A stretch of DNA of 64,000 nucleotides, taken from Halobacterium hubeiense (GTDB taxonomy: Archaea; Halobacteriota; Halobacteria; Halobacteriales; Halobacteriaceae). Position 1 is the stretch's first letter; each line of letters opens with the position of its first letter. This document shows, piece after piece, positions 852-20,882 of the stretch. The position numbers were made by a program, and so were the translations under genes. The stretch is taken from positions 2,294,001 through 2,358,000 of the forward strand of contig NZ_LN831302.1 of assembly GCF_001488575.1 (NCBI RefSeq), written 5' to 3'. The notes under the pieces were generated by a model. It saw only the letters and a list, made by a program, of their open reading frames with translations, made no database searches and was not told the DNA's origin.

Positions 852-1901
<1,050 letters not shown>

Positions 1902-2051: not shown

Positions 2052-5000
2052 ATGCGGCCCGAGGACGAGGACTACTTCGAGTCGCTGGAAGCCGGCCTCG
2101 ACGAGGCCTTCGACGTCGCCGAGCGCGCGAAGCGCCGCGGCGAGGACCCCAAGCCCGAGGTCGAGATTCCGGTCGCCAAGGACATGGCCGACCGCGTCGA
2201 GAACATCCTCGGCATCGACGGCGTCGCCGAGCGCGTGCGCGACCTCGAAGGGGAGATGAGCCGCGAGGAGGCCGCGCTCGAACTCGTCGAGGACTTCGTT
2301 GAGGGCCGCGTCGGCGACTACGAGACGAAAGCCGGGAAAGTCGAGGGCGCGGTCCGCACCGCGGTCGCGCTCCTCACGGAGGGCGTGGTCGCGGCGCCCA
2401 TCGAAGGCATCGACCGCGTCGAGGTCAACGCCAACGACGACGGCACCGAGTACGTCGCCGTCTACTACGCCGGCCCCATCCGGTCCGCGGGCGGGACCGC
2501 GCAGGCGCTGTCCGTTCTGGTCGCGGACTACGCCCGCGCGCTGCTGGACATCGACCGGTTCAAGCCCCGCGACGACGAAATCGAGCGCTACGCCGAGGAG
2601 GTGGACCTCTACGACTCCGAGACCGGCCTCCAGTACTCGCCGAAGGACAAGGAGACGAAGTTCATCACCGAGCACTGTCCCGTCATGCTGGACGGGGAGG
2701 CAACCGGCGACGAGGAAGTCGACGGTTTCCGCGACCTCGAGCGCATCGCGACGAACTCCGCGCGCGGCGGGATGTGCCTCGTGCTCGCAGAGGGCATCGC
2801 GCTGAAGGCGCCGAAGATTCAGCGCTACACGCGGAATCTGGAGGAGGTCGAGTGGCCGTGGCTGCAGGACCTCATCGACGGCACCATCGGCAAAGACGAC
2901 AGCGAGGGCGACGACGACAACAGCGACGACGCTGCAGACGAGGCCGAGGTGTCCACCGACGCCGACGACGCCAGCGACGAACCGGAGGGCCCACCGCGCG
3001 TGGACCCGTCGAACAAGTTCCTCCGGGACCTCATCGCGGGCCGTCCCGTCTTCGGCCACCCCTCGAACGAGGGCGGCTTCCGGCTTCGCTACGGCCGCTC
3101 GCGCAACCACGGGTTCGCGACCGCCGGCATCCACCCGGCGACGATGCACCTCGTGGACGACTTCCTCGCGACCGGCACGCAGATCAAGACCGAGCGCCCC
3201 GGGAAGGCCGCCGGCATCGTCCCCGTGGACTCCATCGAGGGCCCGACGGTCAAACTCGCGAACGGCGACGTCCGCCGCATCGACGACCCCGAGGAAGCCC
3301 TGGAAGTCAGGAACGGCGTCGTCGAGATTCTGGACGTCGGCGAGTACCTCGTGAACTACGGGGAGTTCGTGGAGAACAACCACGAGCTCGCGCCCGCCTC
3401 CTACGCCCCGGAGTGGTGGATTCAGGACTTCGAGGCCGCAGGTGCGGACGTGCAGGCGCTCCGGGACTCGCCGTACGTCGACCTCGAAGCGCCCGACGCC
3501 GACCAGGCGCTCGAATGGGCGACCGAGTACGACGCCCCCCTCCACCCGGCGTACACGTACCTCTGGCACGACATCGAGGTCGCGGACTTCGAAGCCTTGG
3601 CGGACGCCGTCGCAAACGCCCGCACGGAGGCCGGCGACCTCGTCCTCAACAACGAGGACGCGGTCCGCGAGCCGCTGGAAGCGCTGCTCGTCGAACACAG
3701 GCAGGACGACGACGAGATTCGCATCCCGGACTGGCTGCCGCTCGTGCGCTCGCTCGGGGTTACCGAGGATCTGTCCCGCGAGTGGGACGACCTCTCCGCG
3801 GACGCCCGCGAGTGGCCGAACGCGCTCGCCGCCGTCAACGAGGTCGCGCCCTTCGAGGTCCGCGAGCGTGCGCCCACGCGCATCGGGAACCGGATGGGTC
3901 GCCCGGAGAAGTCCGAGTCCCGCGACCTCTCGCCCGCGGTCCACACGCTGTTCCCCATCGGGGAGGCCGGCGGCAGCCAGCGCGACGTCAGCGAGGCCGC
4001 CCGCTACGCGCCCGACATGAAAGACACGCCCGGCAAGCTCGACGTCCAACTGGGCGTCCGCGAGTGCCCGTCCTGTGGCGACCACACGTTCGAGCCGCGC
4101 TGCGGGGACTGCGGCGAGTGGACCGACCCGCACTACGAGTGCCCGGACTGCAACGTGAGCGCCGAACCCGACGAGTCCGGCCGCGTCGAGTGCCCGCGCT
4201 GCGAGCGCGAACTCGACAACGTCGCCGTCCAGACCGTCGACGTCGGCGCCGAGTACCGCGACGCCCTGCAAGCCGTCGGCGAGCGCGAGAACGCCTTCGA
4301 CCAGCTCAAGGGCGTCAAGGGGCTGTCCTCCGCGGAGAAAGTCCCCGAGCCGATGGAGAAAGGCGTGCTCCGCGCGAAACACGACGTCTCCACGTTCAAG
4401 GACGGCACCGTCCGCTACGACATGACCGACCTTCCGGTCACGTCGGTCAAGCCCAGCGAACTCGACGTCACCGTCGAGCACTTCCGCGAACTCGGCTACG
4501 AGGAAGACATCCACGGCGACCCCCTCGAACACGACGACCAGCTCGTCGAACTCCGCGTGCAGGACGTCGTGCTTTCTGATGGTGCTGCCGAGCACATGCT
4601 CCAGACCGCGGACTTCGTCGACGACCTCCTCACCCAGTACTACGGCCTCGACCCGTTCTACGAGCTGGAGGAGCGCGACGACCTCGTCGGCGAGCTCGTC
4701 TTCGGGATGGCGCCCCACACCTCCGCCGCCGTCGTCGGCAGAGTTATCGGATTTACGTCAGCTTCGGTCGGATACGCGCACCCGTACTTTCACGCCGCGA
4801 AAAGACGCAATTGTGACGGGGACGAGGACTGCGTGATGCTCCTAATGGACGGTCTTATCAATTTCTCTAAATCGTACTTGCCGGACCAGCGTGGTGGCAG
4901 CGTTGCCGAGGATTCTCGACTCGTCGCTGTCGACCCCGACGGCGATGTGCGATTCCTGACGTTCGACGAGTTCTGGGATGAGCTTGAAGCACCGATTGAA

Positions 5001-7115
5001 ACGGACGGGAAGTTCCGCAAACGGACCTGTTACAGCGAAGGCTGGCAGACGTACGCGTTCGACGACAACCACGAGGCGTCACTGGAACCAATCGAGAAAG
5101 CGATTCGGTATCAAGCCGATGACGACGACCAACTCGTCCGCGTGGAGACGCAGTTCGGTCGGTCGCTGGAGATAACGGAACACCACAGCCTCTTCCGGTA
5201 CGATGATGGTATCGAGGAAGTTGCTGGTGCGGACCTCGAAGCCGGTGATTTGGTTGTCGCCCCACGCGACCTCGATGTCGACACCCGGGAAACCACCCTG
5301 GATGTTACTGACTGTGTCGATGACCCGTACGTTGTCATCGACGATGACGTCGAGGAACTCCTACGGACGGCCTGGGAGTCAACCGACCGAGGGAGCGAGA
5401 CGCATGGAGCGTTCAACGCGGGACTCGCATACAGGCTCAATAAGTCGAAAATCGGATTTGAGCGGTTCCAGCAGATTCTCGCCCACAGCGAACTTGACGT
5501 ACCGACTGACATCGAGGTCGGACTTGAAGGCTCCTCACTCGGCATTACGCGAACAATCGAGGTTGACGAGGACTTCGCCTGGCTCCTGGGCTTGTTCGTC
5601 GCTGAGGGAACTACCTCAAGCGTCAACCCCTGCATCCACAACGCCGACGAAGATCTCATCGACCGTGCGGCCGACATCGCAACGGACAAACTCGGGACCG
5701 AACCAGGACGACGCTGGTCGAATCGTGCCTACGAACTACGGTTCCCCGCCGTGTTCAGGGAGGTACTCTACTCGCTCGGCTTCGAGAACGCTGATTCGTA
5801 TGATTCGAGCGAGAAGGTTGTTCCAGAGTGTATCCTCCACGCACCGCGGTCGGTAGTGCTCGACTTCCTGCGAGGCTTTATTGCTGGTGACGGAAGCGAC
5901 AGTTCCAACGACAACGTGACGACAGTTAGCTTCCATACGACTAGCGACGACGTGAAAGATGGAATCATGTTCCTCTTACACCGTCTCGGACTCGTCGCGA
6001 ACGTTTCAACAAAAACGAACCGTGACGGCAACAGACAGGACATCCACACCGTAACAGTCTCCGGCGGCGCCAACGATAATCCGCTTCACCGACTTCTCGA
6101 CGGAGACGACCCGTATCTCCCCAAGAGTCTCGTCGTTTCGATTCCGTCTACGCTGATGGAACTCCGCGAGATGGATATTGCGGGCGTGAAACAGACAATT
6201 CCGAAGTACTTGAAGCGTCGCGACAACATCTCGTTGGAGAAACTCACCGAGATCGTCGACACGCTCGACGAACAGGAATTGCCGTCGCAGGCCGAGGCCG
6301 TGCTTGAGGAACTACGCCCGCTCGTGGACGGAGACCTCTCGTATCTGCGCGTCAAAGACATCGAGTCCGTCGACTACGACGGGTATCTCTACGACCTCCA
6401 GGTCGGGGGTGACCCCGTCTTCACCGCGAACTGGCTGTACGCTCACAATTCCATGGACGCGCCGCTGGTGATGTCCTCGCGCATCGACCCCAGCGAAATC
6501 GACGACGAGGCGCACAACATGGACGTCGTCAGCCAGTACCCGCGGGAGTTCTACGAGGCGACCCGGGAGCTGGCCGACCCCGGCGAGGTCGAGGACCTCG
6601 TGGAAATCGCCGAGGAGAGCCTCGGCACCGACACCGAGTACGCGGGCTTCGAGCACACCCACGACACGTCGGACATCCACCTCGGGCCGAGCCTGTCGGC
6701 GTACAAGACCCTCGGGTCGATGATGGACAAAATGGACGCGCAACTGGAGCTCGCGCGGAAGCTCCGCGCGGTCGACGAGACGGACGTCGCCGAGCGCGTC
6801 ATCGAGTACCACTTCCTCCCGGACCTCATCGGGAACCTCCGGGCGTTCAGCCGCCAGGAGACGCGCTGCCTGGATTGCGGAGAGAAGTACCGGCGGATGC
6901 CCCTGACGGGGGACTGCCGGGAGTGCGGCGGGCGCGTGAACCTCACCGTCCACGAGGGCTCCGTGAACAAGTACATGGACACCGCGATCACGGTCGCCGA
7001 GGAGTACGACTGCCGCGAGTACACGAAACAGCGCTTGGAAGTCCTCCAGAACAGCCTCGAATCCATCTTCGAGAATGACAAAAACAAGCAGTCAGGGATT
7101 GCGGACTTCATGTAA
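2052..7115 (+). CDS. polC: DNA polymerase D large subunit DP2, intein-containing precursor
   Basis: 1687-residue precursor of the catalytic subunit of archaeal replicative polymerase D; removing the 517-residue intein leaves a DP2 of 1170 residues. Visible features are the N-terminal [20 protein letters not shown] block, a haloarchaeal acidic insertion at about residues 280-320, a zinc cluster CPSCGDH/CGDCG/CPDC/CPRC at about 670-720, the active-site motif NCDGDED with candidate catalytic Asp922 and Asp924, and a C-terminal zinc knuckle [14 protein letters not shown] near 1605-1625. It works with DP1, which is not in the window. The TnpB element ends only about 15 nt before the ATG, so the ancestral promoter may be displaced. 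Confidence 0.97.
4899..6449 (+). other. Intein (LAGLIDADG homing endonuclease) within DP2, residues 950-1466
   Basis: The DP2 sequence YLPDQRGG is interrupted and resumes with [14 protein letters not shown]. The insert starts with Ser ([11 protein letters not shown], block A), has a block B ITEHHSLF with the T-x-x-H pattern, two LAGLIDADG-type motifs ([12 protein letters not shown] near residue 1175 and [10 protein letters not shown] near 1271), and ends in the splice motif WLYAHN with Ser as +1 residue. All splice residues are present (Ser1, block B His, penultimate His, terminal Asn, Ser+1), so it should be active. The site lies 25 residues after the catalytic Asp pair. Codon use is visibly less GC-rich than the exteins. 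Confidence 0.95.
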
Positions 7116-7145: not shown

Positions 7146-8369
7146 CTAGTCCTGCGGCCGCGGCGTCTCCTCGCGGCCGCCACCGTCGGCGTCGCCGGAG
7201 GCGTCCGCAGAGTCGTCGGACTCGTCCGAGTCATCGACGTCCTCGCTGGCCTCGACGAAGTCGGTGAGGTCGTCGAAGCCGGCGTCGCCCGCGTCCGAGT
7301 CGCGGGCCAGCGCGGGCGGTTCGTACGCGACCAGGAGCTGGTCGGCGACGGCGTAGAACGTCCCGGTTTCGGTGTCCTCGACGACGCCGGTGTCGGCGTC
7401 AATGGCGAAGTCCACGAGGTCCGCGAGCGACTCCGCTGTCGCGCGCGGGCGGTCGTGGACCGACTCGGGGAGGCTGGCGCGGACGACCCACTCGTCGAAC
7501 TCCGCGCGCTCGTCGCGGAACGCCAGCAGGTCGCGCTCGGCGTCCGAGAGCGCGAACGCGTCCCGGTGCCGGCCGACGCCGAGCGCGGCGAGCGCGCCGA
7601 GCCCGCTGACCAGCAGGAGCGGGCCGCCGACCGACCACAGCGGCCCGTAATCGTTGGTGACGGTCACGGTCTCTGTGGTCGTCATGGGCTGGCTGCCGGT
7701 CGCCGCGGGTCCGACGGTGTACGTGTCGCCGTCGACGGCGACCGGGAGGGTGTGGGTGAGCGACAGCGACGCGGGCTGGCCGTCTGCGGTCCCCTCGATG
7801 GTCGCATCGACTGCGACGAACGACTCGACGGTGCCGGGCGTCTGCCCGAGCGACGACTGAATCTCGGACTGGCGCTGGGCGATTCGCGTGGCGTTCAGCG
7901 AGAACGCGATGCTGGCCGAGTCGCCGGACTGCACCTCGCTGGCGCTGGTCTCGTCCAGCGGCGTGCGGTCGCTCCAGTAGACGGTGTTCCCGTCCTCGCC
8001 GACGGCGCGCACGACGAGCGTGGCGTCGAGGTCGATGGACGCGGGTGGCGCGTCGAGGCCGGAGTACGTCGCGACGTACCGGCCGTCGAGTTCCGGCGAC
8101 GCGCCCGTGAAGTACGTCGAGCGATTCGAGAGCGTCGTCCCCACGTCGAAAATCGGGTTCTCGCGGGTGACTTCGGCGGCGTGCTGGAACTCGCCGGAGA
8201 CCGTCCAGTGCGCCTGCTCGGACTGCTGGGTGGTGGTGCCGGGGGCGGCGTGGGCCGTATACGCCGCCCACCCGCCCGCGACTGCGAGCACGGCCAGTGC
8301 TGCCACGAGCACGGGAAACCACGACGATACGACTGCGCGAACCCGGAGCCAGCGCGTCCCCTCCCCCAT
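7146..8369 (-). CDS. DUF5305-like membrane protein next to a signal peptidase
   Basis: 407 residues from ATG 8369 (further upstream starts precede the signal anchor and look untranslated). An N-terminal anchor (WFPVLVAALAVLAVAGGWAAY) is followed by an extracellular beta-rich domain of about 210 residues containing FDVGTTLSNRSTYFTG, a second TM helix (GPLLLVSGLGALAALG), and a cytoplasmic part ending in a Ser/Asp-rich tail. This layout matches haloarchaeal DUF5305 proteins, which commonly follow an S26 signal peptidase gene, as here (stop 8425, gap 55 nt). The role is unknown; a scaffold or accessory for secreted-protein processing is an inference. Confidence 0.75.
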   Translation of the reverse strand: MGEGTRWLRVRAVVSSWFPVLVAALAVLAVAGGWAAYTAHAAPGTTTQQSEQAHWTVSGEFQHAAEVTRENPIFDVGTTLSNRSTYFTGASPELDGRYVATYSGLDAPPASIDLDATLVVRAVGEDGNTVYWSDRTPLDETSASEVQSGDSASIAFSLNATRIAQRQSEIQSSLGQTPGTVESFVAVDATIEGTADGQPASLSLTHTLPVAVDGDTYTVGPAATGSQPMTTTETVTVTNDYGPLWSVGGPLLLVSGLGALAALGVGRHRDAFALSDAERDLLAFRDERAEFDEWVVRASLPESVHDRPRATAESLADLVDFAIDADTGVVEDTETGTFYAVADQLLVAYEPPALARDSDAGDAGFDDLTDFVEASEDVDDSDESDDSADASGDADGGGREETPRPQD

Positions 8370-8424
8370 GGCTCCCCGTGTGTAACCCGGTTGTATAGAC
8401 TTGTCGGTGAACCAACCGGACACG

Positions 8425-9588
8425 TCACCGGAGGTAGCGGAGCGCGCGCCGCCACAGCGACCGGTCGTGGCGGGACTCGCGCTCGCGCATCCGGACGCGG
8501 CGCCCGCCGAGCACGAGCAGGCCCAACGCCGCCATACCGCCCGCGAGCGCTGCGTCGATGAGGAGAATCGGCAGCCACGGGTGGACGCCGTGCAGCGAGT
8601 CGAGAACCGATGTCGGGAACACCGCGAGGTAGCGGTGTTCGGTGACGAACCGCCGGTAGTAGCCGGTCTGCTCGGGCGCGGACAGCGTGACGTCGACAGT
8701 GGCTTCGCCGCGCCCGGCGACGCGGACGCGCTCGGGCGTCACCGAGACGCCCTCGCTGGCCGGTTGGACGTACGCGACGACGGGGACGAGGCCGGCGTTC
8801 GGGACGCTGTACGGCAGCGTCGCGGACTCCCCTTGCTCGATGACTGTGGGGTTCTCGGAGGCGAACTCCGCGCTCACGACGCCGAACTGCTGGGTGCCCG
8901 CGGGCACCACCATCGCGGCGGTCGCCGCGACCACGAGCACCGCGGCGAGCGCGGCGACGACGACACCCGGCGAGATACCCTGCTCGCGGCTCCGGTCTCG
9001 GTCGCGGTCGCGCTGGCGGCCATCGCTGGCGAAGAAGAGGTCGAACACGTACAGCAACGCCGAGAGCCCCAAGAGGAGGTACGCGATGCCCTGCGTACCG
9101 AGCAGCGCGCGCGTTCCGGTCGCGGCCGCGAGCCGCCGCTGGACGTCGGCGAACGCGCTCTGGAGGCCGGTGACGAGCGTGCCGAGGTTCGGGACTACGA
9201 CGACCGACCCGCCGACCTGGAGCGCTTTCGCGACGACTTGCGCGTCCTTCACCGGCGGTTCGCCACCGTCCTGGTCGGTGAAGGGGTTGGCGTCCCCCTG
9301 CGTGACGTACCCGCGCTCGGTCTCGCCGACGACGCGGTGGGTGGTCAGCCCGCCGCCCTGCAGCTCCTCGGCGCGGAAGACGACGACGTCGCCCACCTCG
9401 ACGTCGCCGTCGATGGCCGTCGGTATCGCGACGAAGCCGTCGCCGGGCTCCATCGTCGGCTCCATGCTCCCGGTCTCGACGTACCCCAACAGAACGGGCG
9501 TGCCGAGCACCTGGCCGACCAGCAGGGCGACGACCACGAGGACGACGAACGCTTCGGCGCCGAGCGTGAGCGCGCGGCGGACGGACAT
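8425..9588 (-). CDS. S26 family (archaeal SipW-like) signal peptidase I with C-terminal extension
   Basis: 387-residue membrane protease. An N-terminal TM helix is followed by the box ETGSMEPTM (Ser41), the THRVV box (His84) and GDANPFTD (Asp99 and Asp105). This is the Ser/His/Asp arrangement of archaeal and SipW-type signal peptidases rather than the bacterial Ser/Lys type. After a second and third TM region, residues about 225-385 form an extracellular domain plus a final TM and a basic tail, far larger than a minimal SPase. It sits between a DUF5305-like gene and a rhomboid gene, upstream of exported DUF1102-like proteins, suggesting a dedicated processing role. Confidence 0.9.
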   Translation of the reverse strand: MSVRRALTLGAEAFVVLVVVALLVGQVLGTPVLLGYVETGSMEPTMEPGDGFVAIPTAIDGDVEVGDVVVFRAEELQGGGLTTHRVVGETERGYVTQGDANPFTDQDGGEPPVKDAQVVAKALQVGGSVVVVPNLGTLVTGLQSAFADVQRRLAAATGTRALLGTQGIAYLLLGLSALLYVFDLFFASDGRQRDRDRDRSREQGISPGVVVAALAAVLVVAATAAMVVPAGTQQFGVVSAEFASENPTVIEQGESATLPYSVPNAGLVPVVAYVQPASEGVSVTPERVRVAGRGEATVDVTLSAPEQTGYYRRFVTEHRYLAVFPTSVLDSLHGVHPWLPILLIDAALAGGMAALGLLVLGGRRVRMRERESRHDRSLWRRALRYLR

Positions 9589-9605
9589 TCACTCGCCCCG
9601 ACGTG

Positions 9606-10451
9606 TCAATCCGTCAAAAATCCTGCGTCGGCGTCGAAGACGCCCGCGACGAACGCGACGTACGGCACGAGGAAGCCCAGACAGAACCCCAGCAGGTGCG
9701 CGTAGACGTTCACGACGGTCCCCTCGACGGGTGACGGCGCTGGAAAGCCGACGAACGGGTAGCCGAGGAACGCGACGGCGCCGAGCACGCCGACGTCGAC
9801 CCAGCCGCTCCCGACGTCGGGCTGGGATGCCGGCGCCGAGCGCCACGCGGTCCGCGCGGAGACAGCGTAGGCGAGCGCGAGCAGCGCGCTCGTCGCCGCG
9901 AGCGCGAACGCCACGCGCCCACCGGGGAGCGCGACCAGCGAGACGACGGCGACCGCGGCGAAGAATACGCCGGGTGCGTCCCGGACGCGAATCCGGCGGT
10001 CGAAGCGGCTCGCGTACGCCACCAGCACGAGCCCGAGCAGGCCGGCGAACGCCATATTCACGCCGGAGAGCCCGTAGCCAATCGCGTCCCGGGGCACCGC
10101 GAGGTTCAGCCCCGACAGCGCCAGCGGGAACGCCAGCACGTACGTCGCAGCGGCGGCGCCGAACAGCCGCCGACAGCCCGCCAGCGCGGCGAGCACGTAC
10201 CCGAACCCCGCGAGCAGCGCGTACCCGAGGAGGTTCGCCGCGAGGTGGTCGAACTCGAAGTGGACGAAGTGCGCCGCGTACGCCGTCGCGAGCGTCGGGT
10301 CGCGGTACGCGAACGCCAGCGACTCGCGCGTCCCCGGCGGCAGTGCGAAGACCGCGAGCGCCGCGGCCGGCACGACCGCCAGCGCGAGACAGTCCCGCAG
10401 CCGCACGGCGTCCCGGAGGGCCGCGCGGACCGACTGGGGCGACGCGCTCAT
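9606..10451 (-). CDS. Rhomboid family intramembrane serine protease
   Basis: 281-residue polytopic membrane protein with about seven TM helices. The rhomboid signature is intact: HFEFDHLAANLLGY (His/Asn of TM2), the nucleophile motif GYGLSGVN (Ser129) and the catalytic His in NVYAHLLGF (His252). Rhomboids cleave single-pass membrane proteins near or inside the membrane; haloarchaeal rhomboids have been linked to surface glycoprotein maturation in other species. It lies 17 nt upstream of the signal peptidase gene on the same strand, so both are probably cotranscribed. ATG 10451 is preferred over an upstream start lacking membrane-protein character. Confidence 0.88.
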   Translation of the reverse strand: MSASPQSVRAALRDAVRLRDCLALAVVPAAALAVFALPPGTRESLAFAYRDPTLATAYAAHFVHFEFDHLAANLLGYALLAGFGYVLAALAGCRRLFGAAAATYVLAFPLALSGLNLAVPRDAIGYGLSGVNMAFAGLLGLVLVAYASRFDRRIRVRDAPGVFFAAVAVVSLVALPGGRVAFALAATSALLALAYAVSARTAWRSAPASQPDVGSGWVDVGVLGAVAFLGYPFVGFPAPSPVEGTVVNVYAHLLGFCLGFLVPYVAFVAGVFDADAGFLTD

Positions 10452-10509
10452 GGGGCGAACTGGACGCGTGGCTGGCAAAAGGCTACCCGCCGTGCGGACC
10501 GCGGCCCGA

Positions 10510-11970
10510 CTATCGCCACGGTGTCCTCCGTGCGAGCGCCAGCGATGCCGCGACGACCGCGAGCAGCGCCACCAGCCCGAGCACCTCGGTTAGCCCGAAC
10601 CCGGCCGGCTCCCGGACCGGCTCGTCGGCGGTCGCTGGCTCACCAGCCGATTGTGCGGCCGCCGCGCCGTCGGTCTGATTCCCGGTTGCGACGGCGAGCG
10701 TCCCGGCTTCGACACCCCCGACAGTGACCGCGTACTCGCCGGTCACGTTGCGCGCGACCCGCGCCGTCAGCGTCGCCGTTTCGCTGGCCGAAACCTCGAC
10801 CGTGGGCTCCGCGACGACGGTCCCGCCGACGGCTACCGCGACGGTGCGCTCCCCGGCGATGTTGCCCGCGTTCGAGACGTTCGCCATCACCGTGACCGCC
10901 TCCCCGGGCGCGGCGCTCGCGGATTCGAGCGTCGCGTTCGCGACCCGGAGCCGCGCGCGGTCGGCCGCCACGACGAACGTGGAGAACCCTGGCGTCTCGG
11001 CCTCGAAGTGCAGCCGACCACCGCGCTCGCCGGTCGTCACGACCGCGAGCTTCGATAGGTCACCACCGTCGTCGCGGTAGACGGTGAGGTTCGCGGGCGC
11101 GACGCCGCGCTCCTCGAAGTACCCGACCGGGGCGCTGAACCGCAGCGTCGCGCGCCCCGCACTGTCCAGCCGGTCAGTCACGGTGACCGCGCCCAGCGGC
11201 GCCGCACCCCGCTGGGCGACCCGCGAGCTCGAGGCCGCCGTGCCAGCGGCCTCGACGTCAACCGAGACCGACCCGCCGGTGCTCGCGACGTCGACCTCGT
11301 CGAGAGCGAGGACGCCAGCTGCACCGTCCAGCACTAGCCGGGACGCGTCGAACGTGGTCGTCTCGCCCGCATCCGCACCGAACACCGTGAACCGCCGCGA
11401 AGTCTCGGTCAACGCTCGCGTCTGCACCGTTGAATCCTCGGCCAAGGGCGTGCCCGTATTCCCGGTGACGCTCGCGCCGCTGGCGACATCCGCGGGGTCG
11501 GCCGCCCGCGCGTGCACGGTGATTTTGTTGATGAGCCCGTCCGCGGTCTCTCCGGTCGTATCCACGCGCATCCCGACCGCCACGGTCGCGTTCGGCGCCA
11601 GCGTCACGTTCGTTGCCTGGGACTGCACGGGCGCGCCGTCCGCGTAGAACGTCACCGCGTCCGAGTCGTGCGTGATCCAGACGTGCGCGTACCGCGAGCC
11701 GTTGTACCGCACCCGAAACACGTCCTCGATACCTGTCACCGCGTCGTCGTTCACGCCCTCCGCATCCGGGTTCGCCGCCGACAGGTCGACGACGAGCTCG
11801 CCGTCGTCGAGACGCGCGTAGTCGCTGCTCGGCACGAGTTCCACGTCGACATCGTTGTTGCCAAGTTGGTCGGTCGCCCCGGAGAATAGTGGCGCGGCTA
11901 CCGACGGGAACGCCAGGGTTCCCGCAACGACGACTGCCGCGAGTACGGCAGCGTGCCGGAATCTTGTCAC
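10510..11970 (-). CDS. Exported surface protein with PGF-pre-PGF-like and CARDB-like domains
   Basis: 486 residues from GTG 11970. It has a Sec-type signal sequence (AAVLAAVVVAGTLAFPSVAA), an N-terminal domain resembling the DUF1102-like proteins upstream (DVELVPSSDYARL, then NPDAEGVNDDAVTGIEDVFRV), a segment ANLTVYRDDGGDLSKL...ETPGFSTFVVAAD typical of PGF-pre-PGF domains, a CARDB-like beta domain, and a C-terminal TM helix with an ARR tail. The end weakly resembles a PGF-CTERM sorting signal but the spacing is not canonical. It is probably a wall- or membrane-anchored partner of the small exported proteins. It has its own promoter at about 12032. Confidence 0.7.
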   Translation of the reverse strand: MTRFRHAAVLAAVVVAGTLAFPSVAAPLFSGATDQLGNNDVDVELVPSSDYARLDDGELVVDLSAANPDAEGVNDDAVTGIEDVFRVRYNGSRYAHVWITHDSDAVTFYADGAPVQSQATNVTLAPNATVAVGMRVDTTGETADGLINKITVHARAADPADVASGASVTGNTGTPLAEDSTVQTRALTETSRRFTVFGADAGETTTFDASRLVLDGAAGVLALDEVDVASTGGSVSVDVEAAGTAASSSRVAQRGAAPLGAVTVTDRLDSAGRATLRFSAPVGYFEERGVAPANLTVYRDDGGDLSKLAVVTTGERGGRLHFEAETPGFSTFVVAADRARLRVANATLESASAAPGEAVTVMANVSNAGNIAGERTVAVAVGGTVVAEPTVEVSASETATLTARVARNVTGEYAVTVGGVEAGTLAVATGNQTDGAAAAQSAGEPATADEPVREPAGFGLTEVLGLVALLAVVAASLALARRTPWR

Positions 11971-12031
11971 GCCTCAATCAGCTCCGTTACTGTCACGCTC
12001 GGTCAGTTACCCGGGCTTACCGCTCCCGAGA

Positions 12032-12054
12032 GGTAGTATTGGTTCGTCTGAACC
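12032..12054 (-). promoter_or_regulatory. Promoter and palindrome upstream of the surface-protein gene at 11970
   Basis: Minus-strand CAATACTACC (12032-12041) is a TATA-like element about 65 nt before GTG 11970. Directly upstream lies a perfect inverted repeat GGTTC-GTCT-GAACC (12041-12054). The same CAATACTAC core occurs upstream of the first DUF1102-like gene (about 14264-14272), suggesting shared control of two transcription units. The palindrome is a candidate operator. Confidence 0.45.
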
Positions 12055-12123
12055 ATCTCAGACAGGTCCTGTCACGCCGCCGCACCCCATTCGGCCGGGC
12101 TGCGCGGCGCGTCGACTACGGCG

Positions 12124-12804
12124 CTACTGCGTCGCACCGTCCGGGACGTACACCGGTGTGAGGACATCGGCGAGCGACGACCGCTCCGCAGTCGCGGTGA
12201 TGACTGGTCCCTGCCCGTCCTTAAGCACTCGACTCCCCGCGCTCCCCTCGGGCGCGTCAACGACCAACCCAACATCGACGTGACTGCCGACGCCCAGTTC
12301 GACGGCCGCGGTGTCGACCCCGGCATCGTGGGGTGGCTGGCGCTGCCGCCCATCCCCCTTCAGCGCGTCGAGATCGCCGTTGAAGTCCGCGATGCTGACC
12401 GCCGTCGCGTCCTCGTGCCACGACCCGACGTAGAAGGCGTGGCTCTTGCTCCCGTTACGGCCGCCGTCTTCCAGCATCCACACCCAGACCGGCTGGGTGC
12501 CCTGATTCTCGATTCGGAACAGGTCGTCGACGGTCGTGACCGCGCCGGCGTTCACGCCGTCTCCGAGCAGGCTGTCGTTCCCGCCGGAGAGGTCCCCCGA
12601 CAGCTGGCCGTCCTCGACCTCTACGTAATCGCTGTTCTCGCTCCCCGGAACCGAAACCATTCGCAGGAACGCGTTCGCGTCTTCCGCCACGTCAACGGTG
12701 AAACTGCGGTCGGCCGTGACGCTGGTGAACGCGCCAGTGCCGACGCCGGCCGCTCCTGCGGCTACGATCGACCCCACGCCAGCGAGTAATGTGCGTCGTT
12801 TCAT
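12124..12804 (-). CDS. Tat-exported DUF1102-like protein
   Basis: 226 residues starting MKRRTLLAGVGS. The twin-arginine motif RRTLLAG is followed by a small-residue hydrophobic stretch, then GAFTSVTADRSFTVDVA. That N-terminal pattern is shared with the genes ending at 12863 and 13459 and with the product at 15181. A mature domain of beta strands carries FRIENQGTQPVWVWM, a motif also present in both neighbours (VNQGTQ or VANQGTQ). ATG 12804 is chosen because it places the Tat motif at the very start. The family has no known function; resemblance to bacterial TasA/camelysin-type fibre subunits is a hypothesis. Confidence 0.8.
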   Translation of the reverse strand: MKRRTLLAGVGSIVAAGAAGVGTGAFTSVTADRSFTVDVAEDANAFLRMVSVPGSENSDYVEVEDGQLSGDLSGGNDSLLGDGVNAGAVTTVDDLFRIENQGTQPVWVWMLEDGGRNGSKSHAFYVGSWHEDATAVSIADFNGDLDALKGDGRQRQPPHDAGVDTAAVELGVGSHVDVGLVVDAPEGSAGSRVLKDGQGPVITATAERSSLADVLTPVYVPDGATQ

Positions 12805-12862
12805 AATCTTCCCCTCGAGAAGTCCCACCGGCGGAGTCGAACCGCCGTGCTCCGAGTGGGAA

Positions 12863-13438
12863 TCAGTCGGCGTCGGTGGCGACTGCAGTAATCGTCAACG
12901 TGACCTCGTACTCGGGGTCGTCTTCTTTGACCGGGACGCCGTGGGTGTCGATTTCGAGGCCGCAAGGTAGCGGGTCGCCACCAACGGCGAGCGGGTCGGA
13001 CGGACTGCTCTTCGTGAGCCGGTCCCCCGTTTCGGCGTCGTACATCACGACCGTCGGGACTCCCTCCGTTGACTGCTGGGTCGCGTACACTTCGACGGAC
13101 TGGGTTCCTTGGTTCGCGACGGTGAACAGCCCCGTCCTGTCGTGGGCCGCGTCGCCGCCGAACCGGTAGACTGAGTCGGTCCCGACCCCCTCGGGGTCCG
13201 TGCCACCGTAGTCGTCCTCCTCCGGAGAGGGAATATCGAACGCGACCGTACTCCCGTCCTTGAACGACCGGCGGCCGCTCCCGACTTCTTCGAGCTTGAG
13301 CAACGCCCTGTTATCGTCGGCCACGTCGACCGTAACGGTTCGCTCGGCGCTGACACTGGTGAACGCACCCGACCCCACCGCGAATATACTACTCACGGTG
13401 AGAGTGCCGAGGCCGGCGATGAGGGTGCGTCGTTTCAT
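12863..13438 (-). CDS. Tat-exported DUF1102-like protein
   Basis: 191 residues starting MKRRTLIAGLGTL, with a twin-arginine signal and a GAFTSVSAERTVTVDVA junction almost identical to its neighbours. The mature part includes FTVANQGTQSVEVYAT and ends in EYEVTLTITAV, consistent with a compact beta sandwich. The gap to the upstream gene is only 20 nt and to the downstream gene 58 nt, so the three paralogues probably form one operon arising by tandem duplication. The divergence between copies suggests distinct subunits rather than recent copies. Confidence 0.8.
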   Translation of the reverse strand: MKRRTLIAGLGTLTVSSIFAVGSGAFTSVSAERTVTVDVADDNRALLKLEEVGSGRRSFKDGSTVAFDIPSPEEDDYGGTDPEGVGTDSVYRFGGDAAHDRTGLFTVANQGTQSVEVYATQQSTEGVPTVVMYDAETGDRLTKSSPSDPLAVGGDPLPCGLEIDTHGVPVKEDDPEYEVTLTITAVATDAD

Positions 13439-13458
13439 TTGTCTAATACCTCGCCAGA

Positions 13459-14184
13459 TTACTCGGGCTGTCCGGTGGTGTTATCTCCAGTGTAGCTGTC
13501 GGGCACGCGGGTGGCGTCCGCAATGAGTTCAATCGTTGCGTCGATGTCCGAAGTGCTGTCGACGGTATCGTCCGTCTTGACGTACAGCCCGAAGTCGAAG
13601 GATTCGCCGGGTTCGAGGACGAACTCTTCGAGCGCGTCGGCGGTCCCCTGCTCGTTATCGTTGACGTACGCGCTGTAGGTCGGACCGTTACCGTTACCGG
13701 TAAGCGAAATCTGGTCGTTCTCGACACCTTGGATTATCGCACCGGTGTTGGTGTACTCGCCGTTCGGGCGGTTCGAGGCCTGTGGGTCGATCGCGATGCC
13801 CGACCAGTCTCCGTTCGTGTAGTTACTGTCAGAAATGCTGTCGGGGTCAACGTAGACGACGGCGGCCTGCGTCCCCTGATTGACGACCTTGAAGAGGTCG
13901 TTAATCTGGGTTGTCGCGTTCGCGTTGACACCAGAACCGGAAGAACCCGTGCCATTACTGAACGTATCGTCGACGTCGATGGACACCGCACTGTTGGACG
14001 TGCTGACGTATTCCGAGTTGTCGGCGTTTGACGTTTGGAAGGCGAGCAGGGCGTTACTGTCGCTGGCGACATTGACGTTGACGCTCCGGTTCGCCTGCAC
14101 AGTCGTGAACGCGCCCGTACCGATTCCAGCTGCCCCGGCGGCAGCGAGCGATCCGAGTCCGGCGATGAACTTGCGACGTTGCAT
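13459..14184 (-). CDS. Tat-exported DUF1102-like protein, first gene of the operon
   Basis: 241 residues starting MQRRKFIAGLGSL. Twin-arginine signal RRKFIAG, then GAFTTVQANRSVNVNVA. The mature domain contains NDLFKVVNQGTQAAVVYVD and, near the C-terminus, FVLEPGESFDFGLYVKT, a typical end strand of these proteins. It is richer in Asn, Ser and Thr than most proteins in the window, as is usual for exposed haloarchaeal surface proteins, and contains several N-x-S/T sequons. Likely the most abundant subunit, since it is promoter-proximal (inference). Confidence 0.8.
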   Translation of the reverse strand: MQRRKFIAGLGSLAAAGAAGIGTGAFTTVQANRSVNVNVASDSNALLAFQTSNADNSEYVSTSNSAVSIDVDDTFSNGTGSSGSGVNANATTQINDLFKVVNQGTQAAVVYVDPDSISDSNYTNGDWSGIAIDPQASNRPNGEYTNTGAIIQGVENDQISLTGNGNGPTYSAYVNDNEQGTADALEEFVLEPGESFDFGLYVKTDDTVDSTSDIDATIELIADATRVPDSYTGDNTTGQPE

Positions 14185-14563
14185 TTTCGAGTTACCTCGT
14201 TGTGCGCCCCGCGACCACCACGGTCCACGAGAGCGCTCACTTCCCCCATCACCCCATTGGTAAGTAGTATTGACACGACTGAGCGAGTTCAGCCCCGGTC
14301 TGCCGTTCGGGCCGGGAGCGTCTGACCGCGCCTGACGAGCGGCCCAACCGCGACAACCGTGGTCTGAGCGGCCGTCAGACCGCGCCTGAGCGGCCGATTA
14401 CCAGTTCGTATCAGTTATCTATTCGAGAACTAATGTCTGTAAATTGCGCCGAATAGCGCTTTAGCCGCGATTCACGGGGTTTCGCCGGGTTCCTATCGTC
14501 AGATGTTGATACGTTAATTATCGCCAACACTTATGATGGCGTAGTGGGTTAGCACCACTCGTC
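14185..14563. promoter_or_regulatory. Divergent intergenic control region of the exported-protein locus
   Basis: This 379-nt gap contains no gene. On the minus strand a CAATACTAC TATA-like element lies at 14264-14272, about 80 nt before ATG 14184. The middle has the repeat pair TCTGACCGCGCCTGA (14321-14335) and TCAGACCGCGCCTGA (14375-14389), each followed by GCGGCC, plus a perfect inverted repeat GGTCTGA/TCAGACC (arms 14361-14367 and 14375-14381). An AT-rich stretch at about 14505-14535 (TTAATTAT) probably holds the plus-strand promoter for GTG 14564. The repeats are candidate binding sites for the adjacent winged-helix protein. Confidence 0.5.
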
Positions 14564-15181
14564 GTGTCATCCGCGTCACAGCATCGGGGGCAGGGGGAGC
14601 CCGCCGACACGGGGGAAGGGGAACCGAGCGACGAGACCGTAACTGAGCCGCTGACCGAAGACGAGCTGTTCGACGTCCTCGCGAACCGGCGGCGGCGGTA
14701 CGCCGTCCACGCGCTCGAAGACGAGGACAGCTCCGTCGAACTCGGGGACGTCGCCGAGCAGGTCGCCGCGTGGGAGTACGGCGTCGACGTCGAGCAGGTG
14801 TCCTACGAGGAGCGCAAGCGCGTCTACACCGCGCTCCAGCAGTCGCACTTCCCGATGATGGACGACGCCGGCGTCGTGGACTTCGACAAGAACCGCGGCA
14901 CCGTCGAGCCCACCGAGTCGCTGGACGACGTCGAGGTCTACATGGACGTCGTGCAGGGCCACGAGATTCCGTGGAGCGTCTACTACCTCGGGCTGTCGGG
15001 CGTCGCGGCGTCGCTGATGGCGGCGGTCTGGACCGGGACGTGGCCGTTCGCGGTCCTGCCGGACGTCGCGTGGGGGGTCGCCGTCACGGCGATGTTCGGC
15101 GTCTCAGCGGTCGCGCACACGTACTACGCGCGCGGGCAACGCATCGGCGCGAGTGACGAACCACCGGAGCTTCGAGAGTGA
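14564..15181 (+). CDS. Membrane-anchored winged-helix regulator (DUF7344-like)
   Basis: 205 residues from GTG 14564. Residues about 25-115 look like a winged helix of the haloarchaeal DUF7344 type: LTEDELFDVLANRRRRYAVH, then YEERKRVYTALQQSHFPMMD and a VDFDKNRGTV wing. Two TM helices follow (YYLGLSGVAASLMAAVW and VAWGVAVTAMFGVSAVAHTYY). The layout suggests a membrane-tethered transcription regulator. It diverges from the DUF1102-like operon and overlaps the start of an exported-protein gene, so it probably controls this locus (inference from position). Confidence 0.8.
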   Translation: MSSASQHRGQGEPADTGEGEPSDETVTEPLTEDELFDVLANRRRRYAVHALEDEDSSVELGDVAEQVAAWEYGVDVEQVSYEERKRVYTALQQSHFPMMDDAGVVDFDKNRGTVEPTESLDDVEVYMDVVQGHEIPWSVYYLGLSGVAASLMAAVWTGTWPFAVLPDVAWGVAVTAMFGVSAVAHTYYARGQRIGASDEPPELRE

Positions 15182-15642
15182 TGAACGGGTCACGGGTCGC
15201 CAGCATCGTGCTCGCGCTCGCCGCGGTGAGCGTGCTCGCCACCGGGACGCTCGGGTTCACGAGCGTCAGCGCCGAGCGCGGCGTCTCCGTGAGCGTCGTG
15301 GACAGCGAGAGCGCGTACGTCGGCGTCACCGCGTGCGCTCCGACACACAGTGAGAACGAGACCGGGAACGGCAGCGGTGCCGGGAGCGCCGACGTGTACG
15401 TCACCGTGACGAACCAGTACTCGACGCCAGTGGTCGTCGAAGGAATCGAAGGGGACGGCGGGAACGACGGCGACCTCGACGATTCGAGTCGGGTGATACC
15501 GGTCGGCGAGACGAAGAAGTACTCGTTACAGTTCGAAGCCCGCGAGGTGACCGTCGACGCCACCGCCGACGCGTTCGACGCGACCGTCACCGCCACAGTC
15601 GTCGAGAAACGCCGACACGACTGCAATCCCAGTCAGCCGTGA
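15181..15642 (+). CDS. Exported protein sharing the DUF1102-like signal junction
   Basis: 153 residues. The ATG at 15181 overlaps the TGA of the regulator gene (TGATG), so translation is probably coupled. A hydrophobic signal sequence without twin arginines is followed by GFTSVSAERGVSVSVV, nearly the same junction as the Tat-exported paralogues on the other strand. The mature part has NETGNGS sequons, VYVTVTNQYSTPVVVEGI and two Cys (one near residue 57, one at the C-terminus) that could form a disulfide. Probably a further member of the surface system. Confidence 0.72.
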   Translation: MNGSRVASIVLALAAVSVLATGTLGFTSVSAERGVSVSVVDSESAYVGVTACAPTHSENETGNGSGAGSADVYVTVTNQYSTPVVVEGIEGDGGNDGDLDDSSRVIPVGETKKYSLQFEAREVTVDATADAFDATVTATVVEKRRHDCNPSQP

Positions 15643-16848: not shown

Positions 16849-17070
16849 TAGTCTCTGTTTGCCGTGTCAGATTGAAGTGCCCGTCGGTAGCCGCGGGCCC
16901 GAAAGAAGTGACGGGTTCTGAAGATAGGATATGATGCACAGGTCCGTGGGCAATAACTCGTGGGGTTGACCAGTCTCTGGGGCCCCCTGTTCGCAAGTGA
17001 ACGCGATGGACTTCTCAGAATAGCGAGACGATAATCAGTAAGGCACTGTCTAGTTAGGCCAGTTTGAGAA

Positions 17071-17715
17071 GTGAGCAGGTCGTTGAGTGAGTTGGCTAGG
17101 GTGCTCGCAGACCTGCTCAGCGAGTGCTTCGCGGCGGATTTAGAAGAATCTTGGGAGCGTGAGCGGACGGCGACACCCATTAGGGCGTTCGCCGTCCGCC
17201 TCCACGCGACCGGCTGTTCGCTTCGAGAGACAACAACGATTCTCGCGGAATTGGGCGTTAAAATCTCTCACGGGTCGTGTGGAACTGGATACATCGGCTG
17301 GCTGACAGCGAATGCGACCCGCGACGGCGATGCCGTCGGCGGGTCGCCATCGACGAGACCGCTGTCAAGATCAACGGCGAGTGGCCTTGGTTGTACGCTG
17401 CAATAGACATCGACACAAAACTGATTCTTGACGTTGCGCTGTTTAGCCGACATGGCACCGATCCGGCAGCTGCGTTTCTGCAGAAACTCCACGAGAAGCA
17501 CGATCTCTCTAATGCTGAGTTCCTCGTCGATTAATTTGGCTATCGGACTGCCCTTGCTCGAGTAAGGTTGAGCGGCAGGATCAACTATACCGACCGAAAC
17601 CTGATCGAAAAGTGGTTTCACACCCTCAAAATGCGTGTCGACCGCTTCCACAACTCATGGGTGGGCAGTCGGCGAAGCGTCCGCGAGTGGCTTGAACAGT
17701 TTATGCACTACTGTT
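17071..17715 (+). pseudogene. IS6 family transposase, frameshifted and truncated
   Basis: Three fragments together read as an IS6-type DDE transposase: PIRAFAVRLHATGCSLRETT and LGVKISHGS in one frame, then WNWIHRLAD, RVAIDETAVKINGEWPWLY (first Asp), LDVALFSRHGTDPAAAFLQK and AEFLVD (second Asp) in another, then after an in-frame TAA (17532-17534) NLIEKWFHTLKMRVDRF (Glu). A G appears lost at about 17275 and a second local shift is likely near 17315. The C-terminus stops after FMHYC, where IS6 enzymes normally continue. Start (GTG 17071) and end are approximate. Confidence 0.85.
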
Positions 17716-17731
17716 CTATGACACCCTATCT

Positions 17732-17740
17732 TTATTTTAC
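17732..17740 (+). promoter_or_regulatory. TATA box for the two-gene island operon
   Basis: TTTATTTTA is centred about 25 nt before GTG 17761, the right spacing for a leaderless haloarchaeal transcript starting at or next to the GTG. It lies just past the broken end of the IS6 remnant, so the operon brings its own promoter. Confidence 0.6.
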
Positions 17741-17760
17741 TAGCGTGTTAGGATGTAGTA

Positions 17761-18852
17761 GTGCCTATCTTGAGATTGGTTCTTATTGGTTTCCTACTTT
17801 TGCTGGGATATTGGTTTATCAGAGTGTGGTTAGGGGTGTTCTTGGACCCACGAGATTCGTTAGCCACTCAAGTCCGTTTTCGTGTCCTAGAGGATACGTT
17901 TTCGCCTCCTACGAAGCCAAACGCCAATTTGGCGTACCAGCTTCGGCAGACGCTTGAGTTGGCATATGAGGTGTTTGGACAGCGGGGAACAGTCGGCCAA
18001 GCACTTATCGCAATACTTGCTATTTCTTTCGTCTCCGTTGTTGCCTACATAAGCTCTTCTGCGGCCAAAAACGGAGTATATATTATCGGTCTGTCACCGT
18101 TCAATGCCGATCTCCTCAAAACATTTTGGCAAGTTCAAGCCACAATTGTCTCTTTCGCGTTCGTCATCGCTGTCTTCCTCTGGGAATCTCTCATCAGTGA
18201 CTCACCGTATACTATTGAACTACGAACCGCTATCCGGTATACTCATTCGCTATTTACTATTGGCTTCGCTCTCTTCGGAACTATCGCATCTGGCCTTCTT
18301 CTCTCTCAAGGTTGGGGACCGAATTCAGGTAGTGATCAGGCCATGAACCAAATAACAACGACAGATGGATTCATCGTTACATTTCTTTCAATCACAACGA
18401 TTGTACTCGTTTTTGTCTTGTTCCGACGTACTCTCGGGTATCTTGTCTATAATGAGGATCTAGATTTGAACGACAAGATCGCAAGTCTACGGCTGGACCG
18501 GGAGCTCGCTCCTAGTAGACATGACTATATGACAAAAATCCTCAAATCCTATACCGGGACCAGTAACTCCATGCCCGTGACTGCATACTTAGACGAGCCA
18601 ATTACTGTTATCCGGGCTTCTGATTTAGAGCTCACAGGAGAGATATCTGATATCCACCTAACAAAGATACAGACATTGGCTGCTGATATTCAGGACAGAG
18701 GATACGATGTTGAGTCTGTCCCACATATCGGAATGAACGTCGGGAACAATCCACCGATTATGGCAATACGCGGTGATATTAGTGGTTCGGAGGTAGACTG
18801 CGTTGAACGTTCCTTGACTAACGCTATTCGGACTCAGGAGGCCCTCTATTAA
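17761..18852 (+). CDS. Multi-spanning membrane protein of unknown function (island gene 1)
   Basis: 363 residues from GTG 17761. Five likely TM helices: near residues 4-25, 80-98, 122-145, 165-185 and 205-225, followed by a soluble, presumably cytoplasmic domain of about 135 residues that contains ITVIRASDLELTGE and HIGMNVGNNPP. I do not recognise the family. GC content is low and codon use is unlike the flanking genes, indicating recent transfer. The TAA stop overlaps the ATG of the next gene by 1 nt, so the two proteins are made together and probably act as one membrane-plus-soluble system. Confidence 0.75.
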   Translation: MPILRLVLIGFLLLLGYWFIRVWLGVFLDPRDSLATQVRFRVLEDTFSPPTKPNANLAYQLRQTLELAYEVFGQRGTVGQALIAILAISFVSVVAYISSSAAKNGVYIIGLSPFNADLLKTFWQVQATIVSFAFVIAVFLWESLISDSPYTIELRTAIRYTHSLFTIGFALFGTIASGLLLSQGWGPNSGSDQAMNQITTTDGFIVTFLSITTIVLVFVLFRRTLGYLVYNEDLDLNDKIASLRLDRELAPSRHDYMTKILKSYTGTSNSMPVTAYLDEPITVIRASDLELTGEISDIHLTKIQTLAADIQDRGYDVESVPHIGMNVGNNPPIMAIRGDISGSEVDCVERSLTNAIRTQEALY

Positions 18853-20882
18853 TGAAAAGCACAACTTCAAATCTCAAATTCCTTGTTGGAAAATGCATCC
18901 AAGCAATCGACCAGAGCGATAGTCGAGGTCTACAGGAGGTATTGCAACGCTATCGAGGCATCGTTAACGAACTCATATCAAAGACGGCATCTACCACTAG
19001 CATCAATAAATCTGCAGCAAACCAAATCACACAAACGGTCGTCGATGATTTTGAACTCCTTTGTGCACATGGCTTGAATCACCCGACTCAAACCTTCACA
19101 ACCCAGATTTTGAATTCACAAGGGGCCCTTCTTTCAACCACCCTTACTAAATCGAATTCAATTATCGGGAAGCAGCTACCAGACACCTTCTTCAAAGCAT
19201 ACCAAATAGGCTCTCAATCCGGTTCACCGCCTCCACAGTTTATCGACCGCTTGATGGATAATTTAGCGACGCCGATGAATAGAATGCCTTCAGAATTAAC
19301 ACGTGCCGACACTGAAGATGAAATAACACGAATCAGTGGGATTGGGGACGCTATTGTAGACGTATACTGGAAACTATTTCTTAATGCTATTGACGAGGAG
19401 GACGGATATCTCTTTAATATCTGTTGGGAGGGATTTGACCTCCAAGATACAGGCATCTCGGCGCAATCACATATTGATGCCTATTCAGACTTGGATGACG
19501 GGGAACGGCCCCAGATTGGCAGTCATTATGAGATCGACGATGCTGATTTAGAGCAACATCGTCGAGACTATTTCGACCAATTAGTCGATCGATTGTCGAA
19601 GTATCGGTTCGCGGCTGCTGCTTGGGCGTTCAGGCAGTACCGAGAAGAAAATATTTCCTCTCGGTTCTTCTCTGACATCTTCACCCAGTTAATTCACGAG
19701 GACTATCAGGAGGAGGGTCTCAGCACGATTTCTGAGGTATACTTCAGTATCTCTCTGGAGGACGACCGTCTTCTTGATTCTGGTCGTCATGCTGAGGTCT
19801 CCCCGATGAAACAGTCCTGGTCGTTCAGTTCGTCAATACAATCGTGGTTGCTCGATTTCTACTCGTTCCTTGGTCCGTTTATTATCTCAGATAGCTCGAT
19901 TGATGCAGTGCTTGAAGAGGGTGAGACACCAGTTCCAGTAACGGATTCTGTCGCTGCTCGATCCCAATCAGTAGCGGACCGTGTCTCGGAATTAGAAACC
20001 GGATATGAAGATTGGCAACAGCAATTTGGAGTTTCGTTCACGGAACGTGGAAAAGAAGCATTTATCGAAGCTCATTCGATTGCAAAAGATGAATTTCGTT
20101 CCGAAGAATTCGACGAGATTCGAGAGGCAACTCCGGAACGTGAGAAGGTGCGGGAATTTAAACAAGAAGCGGTAGAATCGTTTACTTCTGACTTTAAGCT
20201 ACGGATCGCACTTGACAGTTTCAACTCTTTAAGCCAGGTAAGTCAACTCTCAGCTGACAGCGAAGATGTTTCCTTTCTGGATTTTGTCCCGAAATCCCGT
20301 TTCACAACCTTCCAATCCTTCCATATGGCTTCGAGCCCCCGCGTTCGTCCGCTCCTATCTCTTGTGATGAACCGAACCGTGAATGAATCATCACTTCAGA
20401 TTGAACCGCTTCAAGAGTTTGAGAATCTTCCTGAGCGGCTACTCAGCGCCGTTGACCAACTTGGTGAGTTGGAAAACGCTGTAATTCTCACCACACCTGG
20501 CATCTCTTTCGGGGAATATCTCTCACATGATCGGTTTACGCGACCGGACAGAAACGAAAGCCAATCTCTTAGAGCGAGTTTCAGACTGGACGATACACCC
20601 GTAATAATGGACCATAGTATCGATCATGCAGGATATAATGCAATTGTTTTGAATGAACTCCAAGCTGTTTCGTGGACAGAACTGATTCGAGAAGGGTCAC
20701 CGCTGGGTATAACGATAGCACACGAGGATGACAATATTCAAGAACTTGTTGACCAGTACGACGTTCCTGAGTTTGAGTATGGGAGTGGTCGGCCTATGGT
20801 GGCTGTGGAGTATGAGTATGAGTTTGCTGTTGACAGCACAGAATTGTCTGGAGTAGCTATCAAGAGAGCGGGCTCAGACTAA
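18852..20882 (+). CDS. Large soluble protein of unknown function (island gene 2)
   Basis: 676 residues. No signal peptide or TM helix is visible; composition is acidic with many Ser/Gln, unlike the very Asp/Ala-rich chromosomal proteins. Predicted mostly helical up to residue about 470 (LETGYEDWQQQFGVSFTERG, REFKQEAVESF), then a mixed alpha/beta C-terminal part (TPVIMDHSIDHAGYNAIVLN, VDQYDVPEFEYGSGRPMVAV). No P-loop, HNH, PD-(D/E)xK or TIR motif could be identified by eye. Translation is coupled to the membrane protein upstream. A defence or conflict role is conceivable from context only. Confidence 0.72.
   Translation: MKSTTSNLKFLVGKCIQAIDQSDSRGLQEVLQRYRGIVNELISKTASTTSINKSAANQITQTVVDDFELLCAHGLNHPTQTFTTQILNSQGALLSTTLTKSNSIIGKQLPDTFFKAYQIGSQSGSPPPQFIDRLMDNLATPMNRMPSELTRADTEDEITRISGIGDAIVDVYWKLFLNAIDEEDGYLFNICWEGFDLQDTGISAQSHIDAYSDLDDGERPQIGSHYEIDDADLEQHRRDYFDQLVDRLSKYRFAAAAWAFRQYREENISSRFFSDIFTQLIHEDYQEEGLSTISEVYFSISLEDDRLLDSGRHAEVSPMKQSWSFSSSIQSWLLDFYSFLGPFIISDSSIDAVLEEGETPVPVTDSVAARSQSVADRVSELETGYEDWQQQFGVSFTERGKEAFIEAHSIAKDEFRSEEFDEIREATPEREKVREFKQEAVESFTSDFKLRIALDSFNSLSQVSQLSADSEDVSFLDFVPKSRFTTFQSFHMASSPRVRPLLSLVMNRTVNESSLQIEPLQEFENLPERLLSAVDQLGELENAVILTTPGISFGEYLSHDRFTRPDRNESQSLRASFRLDDTPVIMDHSIDHAGYNAIVLNELQAVSWTELIREGSPLGITIAHEDDNIQELVDQYDVPEFEYGSGRPMVAVEYEYEFAVDSTELSGVAIKRAGSD

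Follow-up and report, generated by a model that had tools for sequence, protein, structure and literature searches.

Haloarchaeal Tat-fimbriae ('tafi') were reportedly described by Galeva et al. (iScience 2025, 111793), so fibres of this kind, with a solved structure, are already known. Here we compare with them a locus at positions 7146-15642 of a 64 kb stretch of the Halobacterium hubeiense genome (the window), which a first-pass annotation, unaware of the tafi, had likened to bundling-pilus and TasA loci. According to one report (PMC12687288), the twin-arginine translocation (Tat) system exports components of thin filamentous haloarchaeal appendages, of which TafA is the core component. Archaeal bundling pili have been described as structural relatives of TasA, a donor-strand fibre (PMC9674648), and the Sulfolobus threads are donor-strand fibres as well (PMC9715654). 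In TasA, the phenylalanine at P2' is handled by SipW, a dedicated signal peptidase of the endoplasmic reticulum (ER) type, and poorly by the E. coli LepB (PMC10269814). Our results suggest, with a probability that we put at roughly 85%, that the window locus encodes a fibre of the tafi type together with dedicated machinery for its maturation, as judged by sequence comparison and structure prediction. The idea of a haloarchaeal fibre related to the AbpA pilus is well supported by homology to the Tafi pilin of PDB entry 9P0A, by the predicted fold and by a conserved gene set.

The pilin-like protein T7, encoded by the first gene of the operon, has a sole sequence match in the PDB, 9P0A (phmmer E 1.7e-13; profile E 1.4e-26), entitled 'Structure of Natrinema sp. 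J7-2 Tafi pilus'. An AlphaFold2 (AF2) model of mature T7, made from an 84-sequence alignment (predicted local distance difference test, pLDDT, 77.5; predicted template-modelling score, pTM, 0.75), has a beta-sandwich core with pLDDT of ~90, while residues 1-20 are strandless in this monomer and of low confidence (pLDDT ~60), as expected for a donor strand. With this model, Foldseek returned 9P0A as the sole match at E <1e-3 (E 3.1e-6), followed by 7PNB and 7UEG. In VIA-align the best rows were AbpA (7UEG, Z 9.1, 149 aligned, 4.6 Å), 9P0A (Z 9.0, 147 aligned, 4.1 Å) and the Sulfolobus thread (7PNB, Z 8.0), and the rows after these, at Z 6.2 and lower, were ASH/PapD-like and Fim-type pilin folds. 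Thus, the comparison with AbpA-type folds proposed in the first-pass annotation turned out positive, with matches to both the Tafi pilus and AbpA; TasA structures were not among the matches listed by either program. Note that the 9P0A chain is numbered 28-215 (188 residues), that the precursor methionine is residue 3 of its sequence, and that its first modelled residue is, by count along this sequence, the F of GAF. A chain start at this F agrees with cleavage at GA/F, comparable to that of TasA, and we infer that this is where the S26 signal peptidase of the locus cuts.

Two Natrinema loci (L083 and L155) carry genes 90-92% identical to the 9P0A pilin, in the order winged helix (divergent), pilin, DUF1102, S26 and DUF5305, which is the window order without the rhomboid. 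This bears on another explanation, in which the pilin-like proteins share the fold but belong to a matrix, secreted or bound to the surface, and do not polymerise into fibres. The several divergent paralogues in the locus (T5, T6, T7 and T9) would suit such proteins. Moreover, the pilin domain is elsewhere fused to nuclease or PKD/propeller domains, so the domain alone is not proof of a fibre. However, a gene product with that identity, from the same locus type, is the pilus subunit in the solved structure, and conservation among the pilin-like proteins is highest in the N-terminal donor-strand region. We therefore consider non-polymerising matrix proteins improbable.

Nine open reading frames (ORFs) were confirmed in the locus. 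Seven form a compact minus-strand operon in the order T7, T6, T5, DUF1102 protein, rhomboid, S26 and DUF5305, in which the DUF5305 gene begins 1 base past the S26 gene. The DUF7344 gene is divergent from the pilin operon, and the start of the T9 gene overlaps it by 4 bases.

13459..14184, minus strand: T7, Tat-type pilin-like protein of 241 aa, MQRRKF...GTGAFTTV, first gene of the operon
12863..13438, minus strand: T6, Tat-type pilin-like protein of 191 aa (9P0A phmmer E 2.4e-7; TafE model E 6e-15)
12124..12804, minus strand: T5, Tat-type pilin-like protein (BLASTP match to T7; TafE model E 1e-13); the ATG at 12804 is the likely start, the ORF list having 12828
10510..11970, minus strand: DUF1102 protein of 486 aa (DUF1102 37.6 bits)
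9606..10478, minus strand: rhomboid intramembrane protease, with Ser138 (GLSG) and His261
8425..9588, minus strand: S26 signal peptidase of the ER/archaeal type (TIGR02228 60.5 bits)
7146..8423, minus strand: DUF5305 membrane protein (PF17231 168.7 bits; AF2 model)
14564..15181, plus strand: DUF7344 winged-helix protein with C-terminal transmembrane (TM) helices (PF24035 108 bits)
15178..15642, plus strand: T9, small non-Tat pilin-like protein of 154 aa, GFTSVSAERGVSVSV

In a six-frame search of the window, the pattern G.?FT[ST]V.A.R was found at four sites only (complement 14115, 13369 and 12735; plus strand 15253) and NQGTQ at three only (13881, 13114 and 12507). The former are exactly the four proteins said to share a junction, although the exact GAFTSV is present in just two of them, since T7 reads GAFTTV and T9 GFTSV; the three NQGTQ proteins are those expected. 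The junction reflects homology and not chance, as T7 and T5 match by BLASTP (E 1e-20) and the junction is kept in 117/126 haloarchaeal relatives, with the twin arginine in 122/126. These family sets were taken from single-pass phmmer, because iterated profiles over-expanded and were dropped. The four proteins had been recognised as exported, but it had been overlooked that T7, T6 and T5 start with M(Q/K)RR(K/T)(F/L), a twin-arginine (Tat) signal by its sequence motif. T9 and the DUF1102 protein carry no twin arginine. T7 is probably the core (major) fibre subunit, being the product of the first operon gene and of the type found in one-pilin loci. T9, which aligns with the pilin alignment (hhalign E 1.7e-7) and hits the TafC model with E 1.1e-3, is a possible minor subunit.

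The S26 protein passes the TIGR02228 archaeal signal-peptidase cut-off (60.5 vs 51.85 bits), and its Ser41, His84, Asp99 and Asp105 are invariant or almost so across 99 relatives. In agreement with the first description, TM prediction places an extra extracellular domain of ~110 residues (about 228-340) between its TM helices. It is also the sole protein of the genome above this cut-off, a second S26-like match (C1:6926-7081) being weak. On these grounds it could be taken for the general housekeeping signal peptidase of the cell, found here by chance. Against this, the enzyme nearly always adjoins pilin or DUF5305 genes and carries the extra domain, and it is dispensable, since four Halobacterium genomes without pilins and DUF5305 lack it too. 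A housekeeping role is thus very improbable. The next protein, described beforehand as DUF5305-like, scores far above the PF17231 cut-off. Its AF2 model (pLDDT 95.9) has two TM helices, an extracellular beta sandwich and a small cytoplasmic domain. The fold matches only generic Ig-like/beta-sandwich domains (best Z 9.0, a transglutaminase). A kinship with SPC22/23, a subunit of the eukaryotic signal peptidase, was considered as well, but no SPC subunit is among the fold matches listed for it. Among the papers listed by a literature search for DUF5305, DUF1102 and DUF7344, none names them.

The other check proposed in the first-pass annotation, on conservation of the gene set, also came out positive, with the genes occurring together in many haloarchaea. 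Scanning genomes for S26 relatives, we recovered 80 loci, and in the 64 of at least 15 kb, which were used for gene counts, we found a pilin-like gene in 62, DUF5305 in 61 (directly 3' of S26 in 55), DUF7344 in 60, DUF1102 in 35 and the rhomboid in 13. In a count not conditional on S26, across 194 genomes of the order, 140 have S26, 135 have DUF5305 and 131 have pilins; a tally made by hand puts pilin and DUF5305 side by side in 129 of these genomes, one alone in 8 and neither in 57. The system is optional, because the four Halobacterium genomes mentioned above lack all three. A haloarchaeal-type tafi-like locus (L167) was also seen in a record titled 'Mollicutes bacterium', probably a mislabelled metagenome bin.

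Several observations weigh against a Tat-fimbria. The best scores with the NCBIfam TafA, TafC and TafE models are 38, 20 and 72 bits (the last for T7), under the respective cut-offs of 190, 410 and 155, and Pfam yields little for the junction proteins. The Foldseek TM-score between the T7 model and 9P0A is just 0.43-0.48. The loci were collected with an S26 query, so the co-location counts are conditional on S26. Finally, on the S26 tree the window sits among Halobacterium and Halolamina loci, in the other half from the Natrinema 9P0A-type loci and from the TafA/C/E-type locus (L080); the root and the deepest split of this tree are weakly supported. Since the Taf cut-offs are not reached, and given the tree position and the presence of both cluster types in one genome (G027, with a TafA/C/E cluster above the cut-offs and a window-type cluster), the window locus is best called a divergent tafi variant, not TafA/TafC/TafE itself. 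Natrinema species likewise carry two cluster types. Tafi in the broad sense would include this locus, as far as sequences tell, for its pilins are homologous to the solved Tafi pilin and twin-arginine signals are present.

The 486-aa protein, first described as PGF-pre-PGF-like, bears a weak likeness to that family but stays below its cut-off (25.3 vs 28 bits), while it passes that of DUF1102 (37.6 vs 22.2 bits). Its N-terminal domain (about residues 15-162) is pilin-like (hhalign E 3.2e-13 to the pilin alignment), its middle is PGF-pre-PGF-like and CARDB-like, and its C-terminus has a TM helix at 462-480 with an AGFGL...ARRTPWR tail. The pilin-like domain together with this helix suits an anchored base subunit, so the protein is probably the membrane anchor of the fibre. 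Between its gene and that of S26 lies the rhomboid gene. The product scores under the Pfam rhomboid cut-off (15.4 vs 22.6 bits) and does not reach that of the rhombosortase model TIGR03902 (20.8 bits, E 3e-4; cut-off 84), but the assignment holds as to its active site, with the GxSG serine (Ser138) kept in 26/26 relatives and His261 in 25/26.

The rhomboid could be unrelated to the fibre, a hitch-hiker or a surface protease of general function like Haloferax Rho1/Rho2; no substrate of a haloarchaeal rhomboid is known (PMC11985538), and its presence in just 13/64 loci fits this idea. On the other hand, it is confined to loci with a DUF1102 gene, which is present in 22/22 rhomboid loci vs 29/61 others (Fisher 4e-6, counted without one truncated contig). 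In rhomboid loci, the DUF1102 C-terminus usually runs from AGFGL or GGFGL through the TM helix to RR, whereas elsewhere the tails differ (for example, RELSxATTAALAPP). A [AGS]G[FIL] motif before the helix, picked after inspection of the sequences, is present in 19/21 rhomboid loci vs 3/29 others. When the association with the DUF1102 gene or motif was corrected for phylogeny on the S26 tree, the contrasts had the same direction but were too few (3:0 pairs, p 0.25, not significant). An unrelated rhomboid is therefore a serious possibility, though one that we lean against.

The membrane-tethered winged-helix protein is a DUF7344 member, far above the PF24035 cut-off, with TM helices at its C-terminus as described at first. 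In 48/64 loci its gene is divergent beside a pilin or DUF1102 gene. A promoter scan of 14150-14600 found nothing; note that the scan models bacterial promoters and the host is archaeal.

Taken as a fibre system, the locus might work as follows. The DUF7344 protein would probably act as the regulator of the divergent pilin operon, and T7, T6 and T5 would be exported via the Tat pathway. S26 would then cut at GA/F, with the phenylalanine at P1' or P2' (compare TasA), and so expose an N-terminal beta strand. This strand would insert into the next subunit, whose own beta sandwich would be incomplete. Probably the base of the fibre would be anchored by the DUF1102 protein through its C-terminal membrane helix, and the rhomboid would probably process the C-terminus of this protein. 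DUF5305 would probably take part in assembly or act together with S26.

The pilin domain is also found in larger proteins. Outside the window, the same genome encodes an 852-aa Tat-type protein with a pilin domain, a DUF4350 domain and an SNase (thermonuclease) domain (C1 about 1860104-1862662; L171:5105-7663, plus strand). Relatives of this fusion are present in the tafi genomes G120 and G104 and, with an additional Lamin Tail Domain, in G004 and G027. Among the best 12 relatives of the nuclease part, a pilin domain is present in 5/6 from tafi genomes and in 0/6 from tafi-less genomes, where the nuclease has a plain Tat signal instead. This distribution hints that enzymes may be tethered to the fibres. 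Separately, a Halobacterium relative (G008) encodes a 2807-aa candidate giant adhesin or fibre-tip protein (L172:4359-12782, plus strand), which starts with a pilin-like domain and also has some ten PKD domains and a propeller of the PQQ type.

DUF5305 is present elsewhere in the phylum, outside Halobacteria. In 13 non-haloarchaeal loci, chosen by DUF5305 score, S26 lies on the same strand as DUF5305, within ~1.1 kb in 10/13 and within ~5 kb in 13/13. Several have nearby proteins with classical SipW-type junctions (GTLAYFSDTETS; GSGTLAYFSDTETS). One of these loci, L220 (G351:C2:183000-197000), encodes a winged helix, two pilins, DUF1102, S26 and DUF5305, with signals that carry no twin arginine. 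These neighbourhoods suggest an old archaeal module and a haloarchaeal change to Tat. Our tentative proposal, which could well be wrong, is that S26 and DUF5305 form an old two-subunit SipW-type maturation/assembly unit of archaea; that the haloarchaeal tafi are a Sec-type fibre system switched to Tat; that some lineages added a rhomboid processing a pilin-domain membrane anchor; and that the pilin domain was reused to tether enzymes (nucleases). New here are the constant pairing of S26 with DUF5305, a putative pilin-domain anchor accompanied by a rhomboid, the split between Tat and Sec, and fusions of the pilin domain to nucleases. The constant neighbourhood makes DUF5305 a candidate for the missing partner of archaeal SipW-type peptidases, and the Tat/Sec split would offer a clear example of an appendage that switched from one export pathway to another. 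More generally, a widespread haloarchaeal surface-protein family, along with DUF1102, DUF5305 and DUF7344, is linked to a structurally solved fibre system, which gives each of them testable roles.

Other features of the window lie outside the locus. A DNA polymerase II large subunit DP2 with an intein, inside which is a LAGLIDADG domain, is encoded at 2052-7115 (plus strand). At 855-2024 (minus strand), a TnpB-like protein (OrfB_IS605, Cas12f1-like TNB domain) ends a long open frame antisense to the polymerase gene. A low-GC (guanine plus cytosine) island spans 17000-20900 (46% at 18-20 kb), and its two ORFs of 363 and 676 aa matched no Pfam family.

How, then, does the locus compare with the known systems? 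The 9P0A Tafi pilus shares with it the Tat-type signal, the GAF(S/T)SV.A.R junction, homologous sequence and the fold. The window differs from 9P0A-type loci in having three Tat-type pilin genes plus one non-Tat and a rhomboid, in the other type of DUF1102 C-terminus and in the place of its S26 on the tree. The TafA/C/E cluster L080 (G027; NF052520-22) has related pilins, an S26 with the extra domain and a DUF7344 gene, but DUF5305 and the rhomboid were not detected in it, and the window proteins fall far below the Taf cut-offs. AbpA of Pyrobaculum and the Sulfolobus threads resemble the T7 pilin in predicted fold, while no sequence match to the window pilins was detected. In the Bacillus TasA/SipW/TapA system, as proposed here, a fibre protein that has F just past its cleavage site is served by a dedicated Ser-His (ER-type) peptidase (PMC10269814), and TasA forms a donor-strand fibre (PMC9674648), as the window pilins would. 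The window S26 scores 31.1 bits with the SipW model NF046067, far under the cut-off of 190, and TasA is a Sec substrate (PMC10269814), whereas the window pilins carry Tat-type signals instead.

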